This document shows, piece after piece, positions 35,514 through 63,088 of a DNA stretch of 64,000 bases (its first letter is position 1; the number at the start of each line of letters is the position of its first letter). The stretch is from Natronococcus occultus SP4 (GTDB lineage Archaea; Halobacteriota; Halobacteria; Halobacteriales; Natrialbaceae): NCBI RefSeq assembly GCF_000328685.1, contig NC_019974.1:2781001-2845000 (forward strand). Reading direction: 5' to 3'. Under the pieces are notes generated by a model. The model saw only the letters and a program-made list of their open reading frames with translations, had not been told where the DNA came from and did no database searches. Made by a program: the position numbers and the translations under genes.

Positions 35514-35530
35514 ATCCGAATATTCCGGAT
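35514..35530. promoter_or_regulatory. IclR-type operator candidate 2 (ATCCGAATATTCCGGAT)
   Basis: Nearly perfect 17-bp palindrome around AATATT with ATCC/GGAT ends, in the middle of the gap between the divergent iclR genes. One extra base breaks the symmetry of the inner arms. Confidence 0.5.
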
Positions 35531-35648
35531 AGGTTCCAATACAACGGGGACGGATCCGACTCGATTCGTGTCAGTTAGCGGCGCTACTCGTCGAAAGCGG
35601 CTCAGAAGTCGCCTTTGGTGATACGTACCGGAGACTCGGTCAGCATCG

Positions 35649-35662
35649 TCCGGAATATTCGG
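35649..35662. promoter_or_regulatory. IclR-type operator candidate 3 (TCCGGAATATTCGG) and promoter of the plus-strand iclR
   Basis: The third copy ends 28 bp before the TATA box TTTATT (35691-35696), which itself is 28 nt before the ATG at 35722, predicting a leaderless transcript. The location just upstream of the core promoter fits an activator or autoregulator. Confidence 0.5.
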
Positions 35663-35721
35663 CGAGTTTGTTGGATCGAAAGGCAGTACGTTTATTGGCC
35701 CGAGCGCGCCAGAACAGCGTA

Positions 35722-36495
35722 ATGACAGCCGACGTGCCGCTAACGACTGCCGCGAGGACGTTCGAAATACTCGAGACGATCCGGGAGCGAGGTGGGGCGA
35801 GCGTGAGCGAGCTGACCGATCTGCACGATCTCCCGAAGAGTACGGTCCACGACTACGTGACCACGCTGACCCGACTGGGTTACCTGACGAACGACGACGG
35901 GGAGTACGATCTCAGCCTCGCGTTTCTCGCCCACGGGACCTACGCGCGAAACGCCATCGCCCACGCCGACCGCGTCGAGCCCGCGCTCGAGGAGCTCGCC
36001 GATGAGACGGGCGAGATCGTCTGGTACATCGTCGAGGAGGGCGGCCGAGGCGTCTACGCCGGGAAGGGGATCGGACGTGACGCGCTCCAGCCCTACGCCT
36101 CGATCGGGACCCGCAGCGCCCTCCACACCATCGCGGGCGGGAAGGCAATCCTCGCGGCGCTCCCGGACGACCGCGTCGACGAGATCGTCGCCGAGCACGG
36201 GCTCGAGCGCCACACCGAGCGAACGATCACGGCCCGCGACGAGCTCGAGGACGCCCGTGACCGGATCCGCGAGCGGGGGTACGCGCTCAACGACGGCGAG
36301 AACATCGACGGCTGGCGCGCCGTCGCGAGCCCGGTCGTCCTCGAGGAGGAGCTGTACGGCGCGATCGCGGTCGCCGGCCCGAAGAACCGGCTCCGCGGGG
36401 AGTACTTCGAGGAGAGGCTACCGGAGCTGACGGTGGGAACGGCAAACGAGGTGCAGCTCCGGCTTCGAAGCGAGTCGGGAACGGGGTTCCGCTAG
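35722..36495 (+). CDS. IclR-family transcriptional regulator (GntP side)
   Basis: 257 residues from the ATG giving MTADVPLTTAARTF. Winged helix: VSELTDLHDLPKSTVHDYVT; ligand domain: LHTIAGGKAILAALPDDRV, RERGYALNDGENIDGWRA and AIAVAGPKNRLRG. The two IclR proteins share layout and many residues, so they likely arose by duplication. The last codons (TTC CGC TAG) are already part of the first unit of the 24-bp tandem repeat that fills the space to the convergent gntP gene. It is a plausible regulator of GntP and the kinase operon. Confidence 0.92.
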   Translation: MTADVPLTTAARTFEILETIRERGGASVSELTDLHDLPKSTVHDYVTTLTRLGYLTNDDGEYDLSLAFLAHGTYARNAIAHADRVEPALEELADETGEIVWYIVEEGGRGVYAGKGIGRDALQPYASIGTRSALHTIAGGKAILAALPDDRVDEIVAEHGLERHTERTITARDELEDARDRIRERGYALNDGENIDGWRAVASPVVLEEELYGAIAVAGPKNRLRGEYFEERLPELTVGTANEVQLRLRSESGTGFR

Positions 36496-36863
36496 GTGAG
36501 CGGGACGACGTTCCGCTAGGTGAGCGGGACGACGTTCCGCTAGGTGAGCGGGACGACGTTCCGCTAGGTGAGCGGGACGACGTTCCGCTAGGTGAGCGGG
36601 ACGACGTTCCGCTAGGTGAGCGGGACGACGTTCCGCTAGGTGAGCGGGACGACGTTCCGCTAGGTGAGCGGGACGACGTTCCGCTAGGTGAGCGGGACGA
36701 CGTTCCGCTAGGTGAGCGGGACGACGTTCCGCTAGGTGAGCGGGACGACGTTCCGCTAGGTGAGCGGGACGACGTTCCGCTAGGTGAGCGGGACGACGTT
36801 CCGCTAAGTGAGCGGGACGACGTTCCGCTAGGTGAGCGGGACGACGTTCCGCTAAGTGAGCGG
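36487..36863. repeat. 24-bp tandem repeat, about 16 copies, over convergent stop codons
   Basis: Fifteen full 24-bp units and a 17-bp partial one follow without any spacer; the shared core is GCTAGGTGAGCGGGACGACG. Only two units differ (GCTAAGTGAG instead of GCTAGGTGAG, at 36799 and 36847). The first unit contains the TAG of the iclR gene and the last contains the stop of gntP read from the other strand. As 24 is divisible by 3, no frame changes along the array; on the minus strand it would encode an eight-residue repeat (HLAERRPA). It is a minisatellite, probably variable in copy number. Confidence 0.97.
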
Positions 36864-38219
36864 CATAACGATCGAGGCCACGAGCACGAGGAGTAGCCCG
36901 GAGACGGACATGATCGTCGCGACGGCAGAATACGTCTTGAACGTCTCGGCCTGCGTGATGCCCGCGATCTTGCTGACGGTCCAGAACCCGCTGTCGTTGT
37001 ACCACGGCGCGATCATCCCGCCGAAGCCGACAGCCATCATCATGTAGACGGGGTGTGCGTTGAGATCGCCGGTCAGCGGCGCCATCATGGCCGCGCCGGT
37101 GAGGATCGCGACGGTACCCGACCCCTGGGCGACGCGGATCACGGCGGCCACGAGCCAGCCGGCGAACAGCAGCGGCAGGCCGAACTCGACGAGGCCGTCG
37201 GCAATGTACTGGCCGACGCCGGCGATCTCGAGCATCGCGCCGAACGTCCCACCGGCCGCGGTAATCGCGATGATGTTCCCGCCCGATTTGATCGACTCGG
37301 TCAGCTCGTCGCTAAACAGCGAGCGATCCCCGTCCATCTCCATCCGGAAGAACGTGAACGCCGAAAGCATCGCGGCCGCGGTCAGCGCGAAGTTCGGATC
37401 GCCGAGAAACGCCGCGAGGTCAGCGACGAACGCGTCCTCCCCCAGGAGCGCGTCGGTGATCGTCGCGGACGCGATGAAGACGACCGGGACGGCGATCGGG
37501 AGCGAGGACTCGAACAGCCCCGGGAGCTGGTCGACCGGCGTCTCGGCTTTCTCCTTGAGGCTCTCCGGGGACGAGCCCATGGCTTCCCGGAGCGGGAAGT
37601 CCTCGCGACTGTGGAGAAAGCGCCCGTAGACGATCCCGCCGAGCAGCGACGTCGGCAGCGCGAGTCCGACCCCGACCAGGAGCGCGAGCCCGACGTCGAC
37701 GTCGAGTTCGGCGGACATCGCAAGCGGGCCCGGCGTCGGCGGCACGAGCATGTGCGTCGCCAGCGCCCCGGCACACAGCACCGAGATGTACAGCGAGAAC
37801 TTCACGCCCGTCCTGGCTTTCATCGACCGACCGAGCGGCGCGAGAAGGAAGAAGACGTTGTCGAAGAACACGGGGATCGACAGCACGTAGCTACTGCCCA
37901 TCAGCGCCCACTCGGACTGGTCCTCGCCGGTGAGCGAGCGGAAGGCGCGGACGATCCGCTCGGCCGCCCCGCTGTCCATCAGGGTCTTGCCGATGATCGC
38001 GGCCATCAGGATCGGGATCCCGATCGAGACCATCACGTCGCCGAAGGACTCGGCGACCTGCGCAGGGACCGCGTCGAACGCGATCTGTGGCGTCACGATC
38101 CCGATTGCCATCGCCGCGATGATCAGCCCGACGAACGCCGGCAGTTTCACCCACACTAACAGTACCACCGCGAGAACCAACCCGACGACGAACGGTATAA
38201 GCGGGTTTGAGAGTACCAT
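36852..38219 (-). CDS. GntP-family permease (gluconate/sugar-acid:H+ symporter)
   Basis: 455 residues with about twelve to fourteen hydrophobic segments. Family text: GIPILMAAIIGKTLMDSGAA, SIPVFFDNVFFLLAPLGRSM, THMLVPPTPGPLAMS and ITAAGGTFGAMLEIAGVGQY, then AQGSGTVAILTGAAMMAPL near the end. GntP members take up gluconate and other aldonates, in some bacteria C4 acids such as D-threonate or D-erythronate. Beside a DUF1537-PdxA operon this is the best candidate for the C4 acid importer. The C-terminus (VMPLT) ends within the 24-bp repeat array. Confidence 0.93.
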   Translation of the reverse strand: MVLSNPLIPFVVGLVLAVVLLVWVKLPAFVGLIIAAMAIGIVTPQIAFDAVPAQVAESFGDVMVSIGIPILMAAIIGKTLMDSGAAERIVRAFRSLTGEDQSEWALMGSSYVLSIPVFFDNVFFLLAPLGRSMKARTGVKFSLYISVLCAGALATHMLVPPTPGPLAMSAELDVDVGLALLVGVGLALPTSLLGGIVYGRFLHSREDFPLREAMGSSPESLKEKAETPVDQLPGLFESSLPIAVPVVFIASATITDALLGEDAFVADLAAFLGDPNFALTAAAMLSAFTFFRMEMDGDRSLFSDELTESIKSGGNIIAITAAGGTFGAMLEIAGVGQYIADGLVEFGLPLLFAGWLVAAVIRVAQGSGTVAILTGAAMMAPLTGDLNAHPVYMMMAVGFGGMIAPWYNDSGFWTVSKIAGITQAETFKTYSAVATIMSVSGLLLVLVASIVMPLT

Positions 38220-60287: not shown

Positions 60288-61286
60288 CTACTGCTCGAGG
60301 ACGTCGCCCCGGATCGAGTACGTCCGGACGTTGCCACAGTCCTGTGCACCGAACGTGAGCGTCTCGGTAGCGCCACCCTCGAGGTCGATCTCGGTGCTTT
60401 CCTCCTGCTCGTCGCGGTCGCCCCGAATGCCGACCCAGACGAAGCCCGTGATCTCGTCGGGCGTCTCGTTGTACACCTCGAGTTCGACCTGACAGTTCTG
60501 GCCGTCGAAGGCGTGTGACTGGACCGAGAACACGTTGTCGGTGCCACCCTCCATGCTGACGTAGCCGTCGATCTCGTCGCCGTCGACGCGCTCGATGGGT
60601 TCGTAGCCGTGGAGTTCGAACCCGAAGTGGGTTGCCTCGGAACAGTCCGAGAGCACGGCGGTGAGCTCGTGGCTCGCGTCGTCGCCGTCGAGCTCGTAGT
60701 CGTTGTTCCGCGACTCCGCGAGGACGTCGTCGCCGTAGTAGACCACGAAGTCGTACTGGAGCTGGGCCGTCTCGCCGTCGGGCCGCGTGACCCTCGCGGT
60801 CAGCTCACAGCCGTCGCCGACCTCGAAGTCGGCGACCTCGAGCGGGCTGTCGTTGACGATCTCGTTCTCGTAGTCGTCCGGATCGAGTTCGTCCTCGCCG
60901 TCGTCCGCGTCGTCGTCCTCGTCCTCCGCTTCGTCCTCGTCGTCCGCATCGCTATCGTCGTCCTCGTCGTCGCTTTCGTCGTCAGCCTCCTCACCGTCGA
61001 ACTCGTCCTCGTCGGCCTCCTCGCCGTCGAACTCGTCGTCCTCGTCGTCGGTCTCGTTGCCGGCGTCGTCATCGCTTTCGTTGCCGGCCTCGTCGTCGGT
61101 CTCGTTGCCGGTGTCCGTATCGTCGTCCCCGTCGTCGGCCCCCGTCTCGTCGTCGGTTTCGTTTCCGTTCTCGTCAGCCGTTCCGTCGTCGGACGCGGTA
61201 CCGTCGTCGTCTCCGTTCTCGTCGCTGCAGCCGGCCACCACGGCTGCTGCACCCGTCGCACCAATTAGGAACTTTCTCCTGTCCAT
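60288..61286 (-). CDS. Acidic lipoprotein with long D/E/N/T-rich linker
   Basis: 332 residues. Tat-type signal MDRRKFLIGATGAAAVVAG with lipobox VVAGC at residues 17-20. Residues ~21-135 consist of low-complexity acidic repeats (variants of GNETDDE and EFDGEEADE), which will hold the domain away from the membrane. The C-terminal ~190 residues are a beta-rich domain with paired cysteines (GDGCELTARVTRPDGETAQL, LSDCSEATHFGFEL, GQNCQVELEVYNETPDEITG, AQDCGNVRTYSI). I do not recognise the domain. Surface protein, function unknown. Confidence 0.83.
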   Translation of the reverse strand: MDRRKFLIGATGAAAVVAGCSDENGDDDGTASDDGTADENGNETDDETGADDGDDDTDTGNETDDEAGNESDDDAGNETDDEDDEFDGEEADEDEFDGEEADDESDDEDDDSDADDEDEAEDEDDDADDGEDELDPDDYENEIVNDSPLEVADFEVGDGCELTARVTRPDGETAQLQYDFVVYYGDDVLAESRNNDYELDGDDASHELTAVLSDCSEATHFGFELHGYEPIERVDGDEIDGYVSMEGGTDNVFSVQSHAFDGQNCQVELEVYNETPDEITGFVWVGIRGDRDEQEESTEIDLEGGATETLTFGAQDCGNVRTYSIRGDVLEQ

Positions 61287-61462
61287 GAAAACAACATATT
61301 CTAATGAATAAAAAATATAACGGTAACTAGCTCAAAAAAGCGAATCGGCGCTCGCTCGGCACGATTTCGCGAGTGCTTCCGGTTGCTCTGGACGGGCGCT
61401 TGCGACGGTGTCGCGAACGACTCGCTTTCGCAACTGCGACGATCGCGTCGTTCGTCGCTCGA

Positions 61463-63088
61463 TCAGTCCTGCGATTCGGCGTCGACGCCGGCTCGACGGC
61501 GCAGCCACTCGAGCCCGAGGACGCCGCCCGCGATCCCGGCACCGGCCGTGAAGCCGGGCATCTCGTCGTCGGTCTCGTCACCGTCGCCCGTTCCGTCGGT
61601 GGCGGTGTCTGACTCGTCGGTTCCGTTCGCTGGTTCGGCGTCTCCGTCTGCGGGAGGATCCTCCCCGTCGCTTTCGCCGCCCGTCTCGTTTTCCGTCGTT
61701 TCGTCGTCGCCCGCGGTCTCGTTGACCTCCTCGCCGTCGAACTCGTCGTCGGTCTCGTTGCCGACGTCGTCGTCGCTTTCGTTGCCGTCGTCCGTGTTCT
61801 CGCCGCTTTCGTTGTCGTCGCCGGTCTCCCTCTCGTCGTCCCTGTCCTCGTCGCTTTCGTCGTCGTCAGCCTCACCGCCATCGCTCTCCGCCCGGAGCGC
61901 AACGAGCCCGTTCTCGCCGTTCGTGTAGAGCGTCTCCGCGGTGACGGCGAACCAGTCGGCCAGCGCGTCGCCGTCGACGATCGGGTGGGTAAGCTCCCAC
62001 CGTTCGGCGCCGTCCTCGAGTTCGAGCCCGAGTAGCGCTCGCTCGTTGTAGCCCGGGTAGTAGGGCATCAGAACCGTTTCCCCGACGATCGCGGGATCGC
62101 GCCACCCGCTCGTCCCGCCGATCTGCTCCCACCCTTCGTCGGTCTCGTAATCGGTAACTCGAAGCGCGTCGGGACTGGCCGCGATCCGAACCGACTCGGT
62201 CGCCGCCGTGGGGAGCACGCTCGGAGCCGTCCCGAGACGGTCGCCGGTCGCCGCGTCGAGGATCGGAAACTCGTCCTCCGGACTCCCGCTGACGAACACT
62301 CGCTGGGCGGTCGCCGCGACGCCGGCGAACGACAGCCCCTCGTACTCGCGTCGCCAGTGGGTCCAGGCGGTAGTCCCGTCTTCGGCGTCAAGCGCCGCGA
62401 TTCCCGCACCGTCCGCGATCGCGTACACGAGCCCGTTCGCGACGGCAACCGGTACCGATCCGAACGCGGCGTCCTCCGTGCCGGGCTCGGTCACGTCGTC
62501 GGCCGCCTCGAACTCGACCGATTCGAGCCCCCAGACCACCGTCCCGTCGTCGACGTCGTAGGCCAGCAGCTCCCCCGCGGCGACGACGTAGGCCGTCCCG
62601 TCGACGACGGTCGGGCTCGTGACGGTCTGTTCGTGCTCTCCCTCGTCGAACGGCTCGCTCCAGCGCACCTCGCCGGTGTCGGCCTCGAGGACGGACAGGC
62701 TCTCGCCACCGACGACCACCGCGTCGTCGGCAACCGCGGGCGTCCCGTCGGCGCCGACGTCCTCGCGTTCCCAGCGCGCCGAGCCGTCGGTCGCGTCGAG
62801 CGCGTGGACCCCACCGTCCGTCCGGAGGTAGACCGTTCCGTCGACGATGGCGGCTCGCCCGCCTCGATCGTACTCCCAGGCGACCGTCTCCGGCACGGGA
62901 AACGAGCCGTCGGCCGGAACGGACGCCGTGTTCCCCGGGGTCCCCCGGTACGAGGACCAGCCCGACTCTGCGGGTGCCACGTCCTCGTCGCCGGGTTCCG
63001 CGGCGCCGCGCTCGCTCGTTGCGAGGACGCTCCCGATCGACGTCGCTGCCCCTGTCGCCAGTACCGATCGCCGGCTCCAGCCCGACAT
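61463..63088 (-). CDS. PQQ-type beta-propeller surface protein with PGF-type anchor
   Basis: 541 residues. Tat signal: WSRRSVLATGAATSIGSVLA. Propeller strands: SFPVPETVAWEYDRGGRAAI, VHALDATDGSARWEREDVGA, LSVLEADTGEVRWSEPFDEG, IAALDAEDGTTAWTHWRREY. Then a D/E/N/T-rich linker with DDGNESDDDVGNETDD-like repeats, and the end PGFTAGAGIAGGVLGLEWLR plus RRA. It is a paralogue of the 57932 gene: the layout and the last ~30 residues are nearly the same. Surface protein, ligand unknown. Confidence 0.9.
   Translation of the reverse strand: MSGWSRRSVLATGAATSIGSVLATSERGAAEPGDEDVAPAESGWSSYRGTPGNTASVPADGSFPVPETVAWEYDRGGRAAIVDGTVYLRTDGGVHALDATDGSARWEREDVGADGTPAVADDAVVVGGESLSVLEADTGEVRWSEPFDEGEHEQTVTSPTVVDGTAYVVAAGELLAYDVDDGTVVWGLESVEFEAADDVTEPGTEDAAFGSVPVAVANGLVYAIADGAGIAALDAEDGTTAWTHWRREYEGLSFAGVAATAQRVFVSGSPEDEFPILDAATGDRLGTAPSVLPTAATESVRIAASPDALRVTDYETDEGWEQIGGTSGWRDPAIVGETVLMPYYPGYNERALLGLELEDGAERWELTHPIVDGDALADWFAVTAETLYTNGENGLVALRAESDGGEADDDESDEDRDDERETGDDNESGENTDDGNESDDDVGNETDDEFDGEEVNETAGDDETTENETGGESDGEDPPADGDAEPANGTDESDTATDGTGDGDETDDEMPGFTAGAGIAGGVLGLEWLRRRAGVDAESQD

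Follow-up and report, generated by a model that had tools for sequence, protein, structure and literature searches.

The genes for an IclR-family regulator (iclR) and a GntP-family permease (gntP) of Natronococcus occultus SP4 converge on a 24-bp minisatellite of 16 units, which is likely to be a young, probably neutral intergenic repeat that arose at the junction of the two genes. The array begins inside the end of one gene and finishes inside the end of the other, and one of the relatives that share the convergent gene pair carries a diverged two-copy version of it. The features on which the analysis rests are listed below, with coordinates counted within the window, the whole 64-kb stretch of DNA analysed.

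35722–36495, plus strand: iclR, open reading frame with Pfam matches to IclR_C (2.9e-29) and HTH_IclR (4.7e-13)
36478–36485, plus strand: left flank GGAACGGG, a diverged partial copy of the unit end GGGACGAC, within the coding end of iclR
36486–36863, no strand assigned: 24-bp minisatellite, 16 units of GTTCCGCTAGGTGAGCGGGACGAC
36486–36506, no strand assigned: first-unit hairpin GTTCCGCT-AGGTG-AGCGGGAC, 8-bp stem with one G-T pair, recurring every 24 bp
36852–38219, minus strand: gntP, open reading frame with a Pfam match to GntP_permease (9.5e-92)

Structure of the array

Tandem Repeats Finder (TRF), applied to the window, returned the array as by far its strongest tandem repeat (36486–36863, period 24, 15.8 copies, 99% matches, score 742). 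Read in register, it consists of 15 full 24-mers from 36486, followed by a sixteenth unit that matches over 18 bp (36846–36863), after which the repeat is abandoned and the sequence runs into gntP. Both readings confirm the array of about 16 copies between convergent genes given in the preliminary description, including its right boundary; the left boundary lies at 36486 and not at 36487. The units had also been called nearly identical, which holds: units 1–13 and 15 are the same, giving 13 identical units in a row, and the only base position that varies inside the array is position 10, where G is replaced by A in units 14 and 16. Both variant units are at the gntP end, the iclR side being more uniform. 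A chance origin of these head-to-tail copies is excluded. The array is GC-rich, single and chromosomal, in an assembly comprising a chromosome of 4,013,216 bp and two smaller contigs.

The iclR stop codon (TAG, 36493–36495) falls within unit 1 and the gntP stop codon (36852–36854, CTA on the plus strand) within unit 16, as had been proposed, leaving units 2–15 as non-coding DNA between the two stops. All 16 units interrupt the two gene frames, one on each strand, with a stop codon (TAG or TAA on the plus strand, TAG on the minus strand), so that the translated array repeats VSGTTFR* in the plus frame and NVVPLT*R in the minus frame. The tetranucleotide CTAG, previously assigned to every unit, is present in 14 of the 16, units 14 and 16 reading CTAAG, while the accompanying claim of stops on both strands stands for all of them. 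These stops need no selective explanation, since they were copied in each unit from the ends of the two genes. A phase-variable coding repeat is rejected, because a 24-bp unit does not shift the frame and each copy closes the frames of both genes. Three other frames are open across the array and are unsupported as coding; a repeat-coded protein is likewise rejected, the 195-aa minus-strand open reading frame (HLAERRPA)n overlapping gntP in another frame without any support.

The junction in other Natronococcus genomes

Among eight other Natronococcus genomes, the convergent iclR/gntP pair is found only in N. amylolyticus and N. sp. A-GB7, in both cases without the array. The stop-to-stop gap is 39 bp in N. 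amylolyticus and 15 bp in N. sp. A-GB7, compared with 356 bp in N. occultus; subtraction of 14 × 24 bp from the latter leaves 20 bp, near the gaps of the relatives. The junction of N. sp. A-GB7 contains two imperfect copies, GGAACGAAGTTCTCCGGGTGAGCG at the iclR end and GAAACGACGTTCCCTAGGTGAGCG at the gntP end, which are identical at 19 of 24 positions with an offset of 23 bp, a match equalled by none of 2000 dinucleotide shuffles. Aligned as a whole with the tandem consensus, this junction scores 54 over 59 columns, compared with 27 for the best of 500 shuffles. No internal duplication is detectable in the junction of N. amylolyticus, where the best offset match was reached by 1384 of 2000 shuffles and unit-like sequence is confined to the gntP-side copy. 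Copy number thus varies between lineages, from 16 in N. occultus through two imperfect copies in N. sp. A-GB7 to none detectable in N. amylolyticus.

The two-copy state of N. sp. A-GB7, with one copy per gene end, supports the earlier proposal that the repeat arose from the DNA in which both genes ended, and expansion between two such copies leaves each outermost unit with the stop of the gene beside it. The 23-bp spacing in this species, compared with 24 bp in N. occultus, argues against a constraint on frame or spacing. That the two-copy state was ancestral is suggested by one relative, N. sp. A-GB7, N. amylolyticus having no detectable duplication.

In four other Natronococcus genomes gntP lies downstream of iclR in the same direction; a further genome has gntP without a matching iclR neighbour (G008), and only distant gntP paralogues were found in another (G003). 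Between the facing and same-direction arrangements gntP is only 72–75% identical, while iclR is 85–86% identical in three of the four same-direction genomes. This pattern suggests that gntP replacement or inversion may lie behind the two gene arrangements.

Age and distribution of the repeat

Compared with N. amylolyticus and N. sp. A-GB7, the flanking genes of N. occultus are 93% (gntP) and 87–88% (iclR) identical, falling at third codon positions to 81–83% for gntP and approximately 76–78% for iclR (overall approximately 75–83%). The presence of 13 identical units in a row beside third positions that have diverged to this extent indicates recent expansion or homogenisation. Recent expansion, as previously suggested from the near-identity of the units, also agrees with the absence of the array from relatives.

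The preliminary description had recommended a search for the unit in relatives, which recovered the array in none of them. With up to three mismatches allowed, the unit GTTCCGCTAGGTGAGCGGGACGAC was found neither elsewhere in its own genome nor in the eight other Natronococcus genomes. Outside the N. occultus genome, a search of 125 family genomes yielded nothing closer than isolated single sites with two mismatches, and these were no commoner than matches to control patterns. Exact matches were absent from GTDB contigs and from IMG/VR viral contigs, and blastn gave no match to the unit in plasmids. A mobile or dispersed repeat is rejected on the basis of these searches.

Tandem arrays and CTAG sites were also surveyed in sampled stretches of the N. 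occultus genome totalling 856 kb, including the window. The array at 36486–36863 is the highest-scoring tandem array in this sample, in which each of the other strong near-identical arrays is in an open frame and has a period divisible by three. Low-complexity repeats are also present in the window at 60889–61821; these are TCGTCG-rich, with most periods multiples of three, and probably encode an acidic segment, read from the minus strand.

Hairpins, CTAG sites and alternative explanations

The unit is a near-perfect palindrome and forms its hairpin on both strands; the arms can also pair with those of neighbouring units, so that either strand of the array can fold into a series of small hairpins or a single long one. 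The Rfam matches, to long microRNA-hairpin and ilvB-OMG models, were all below threshold and are an artefact of the long fold, and a known RNA family is rejected. A different palindrome, around GAATATTC, is the likely operator of IclR and occurs in two copies (35515–35529 and 35648–35663) in the region upstream of iclR that separates two divergent iclR genes; two copies are also present in N. amylolyticus (L048 2917 and 3062), with single matches upstream of iclR in others.

A row of hairpins between convergent genes might act as a bidirectional terminator or 3'-end protector, ending the iclR and gntP transcripts and blocking antisense read-through, with each unit adding a little. Every unit forms an 8-bp stem, a stable hairpin lies just behind the stop, the fold of the complete array is much stronger than those of shuffled sequences (z of -16.1 and -10.6 on the two strands), and no run of four T was found within the 1.1–1.4 kb examined after the stop of either gene. 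In Haloferax volcanii, 59% of transcripts ended in vivo at one inserted hairpin (PMC7237163), and the units resemble such hairpin-associated terminators in forming a hairpin able to act downstream of a gene; the N. occultus hairpins differ in being repeated 16 times in tandem, on both strands. This role is nevertheless unlikely. The array contains no run of three T on either strand, and thus no T-rich tract of the kind found in intrinsic terminators, and no terminator-like site was found at it, whereas the strong intergenic termination signal of Haloferax is a stretch of T, with 95% termination (PMC7237163). Two relatives with the convergent pair manage without the array. The unit hairpin is only mildly unusual, a stem of at least 8 bp arising in 4% of shuffled 24-mers, and the z-scores of the array fold follow from the repetition of this hairpin. 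A weak two-way terminator at the array is possible; the stronger proposal, that it is a functional bidirectional terminator with a strength tuned by hairpin copy number, stepwise duplication having built a T-tract-free insulator between convergent genes, is quite improbable.

The array might alternatively serve to bind proteins, its units being iterons of a replication origin, sites for a regulator or a cluster of CTAG methylation sites. Haloarchaeal genomes are generally poor in CTAG, which a common haloarchaeal orphan methylase recognises (PMC6471742), and the N. occultus SP4 chromosome has 1534 such sites, or 0.38 per kb (PMC5867850). The array holds 14 within 0.36 kb, compared with 0.44 per kb in the 856 kb sampled, and the next densest 380-bp stretch has five (L086 374, at the start of the chromosome). 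That five-site stretch, in a CTAG-poor genome, is close to cdc6 at C1:2624. The cluster in the array may cause it to be heavily methylated, but it arose because one CTAG was copied and needs no separate explanation. Iterons are rejected, as the array does not adjoin an orc1/cdc6 or rep gene and the nearest Cdc6_C match (C1:2939178) is approximately 120 kb away; an array of IclR operators is rejected because the likely operator is the GAATATTC palindrome at the iclR promoter. Together with the absence of the unit from the rest of the genome, this makes a protein-binding array extremely unlikely. It is also very unlikely that the copy number is an assembly artefact, the true number being far from 16. 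Short reads can mis-size 378 bp of near-identical repeats, but no inconsistency arises from the one-base differences of units 14 and 16 or from the unique flanks, the three-contig assembly spans the region, and complete invention is improbable given the two-copy precursor in N. sp. A-GB7.

Proposed origin and significance

Under the favoured explanation, that of a young minisatellite, iclR and gntP would have faced each other with their ends approximately 15–40 bp apart in a Natronococcus ancestor, which would have carried an imperfect tandem duplication of approximately 23–24 bp with one copy per gene end, the state now seen in N. sp. A-GB7. In the lineage of N. occultus, slippage or unequal recombination may then have raised the copy number from approximately two to 16 and homogenised the copies, a process perhaps helped by the hairpin-forming unit. 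The added copies would have fallen between both stops, extending the gap from approximately 20 to 356 bp. Copies placed between the two stop codons change neither protein, so that selection tolerates the expansion, and any effect on transcript ends would be secondary. The near-perfect palindromy of the unit and its place between genes lacking T tracts could reflect selection, and are counted against neutrality.

The array resembles prokaryotic intergenic minisatellites and variable-number tandem repeat (VNTR) loci in its head-to-tail near-identical copies, which are lineage-specific, non-coding and absent from relatives, and its 24-bp unit falls within their usual length of about 10–100 bp. 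It differs from them in that the unit holds the ends and stops of both convergent genes and that a relative shows the probable precursor, with two diverged copies. The tandem repeats of Borgs likewise begin inside gene ends (PMC9879509), but are A-enriched, numerous and extrachromosomal, in contrast to the one GC-rich chromosomal array of N. occultus. The predominant period of tandem repeats in Halobacteria is a multiple of three, repeats in coding frames being usual (PMC6749651); the array shares such a period but lies between two genes.

If the array is neutral, it would mainly be of use as a strain-typing marker. If it also ends transcripts, it would represent a case in which repeat expansion has produced an archaeal terminator that lacks T tracts. 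The iclR/gntP junction offers a clean natural example of the birth of a minisatellite, with the probable precursor and the expanded state present at the same junction in sister species.
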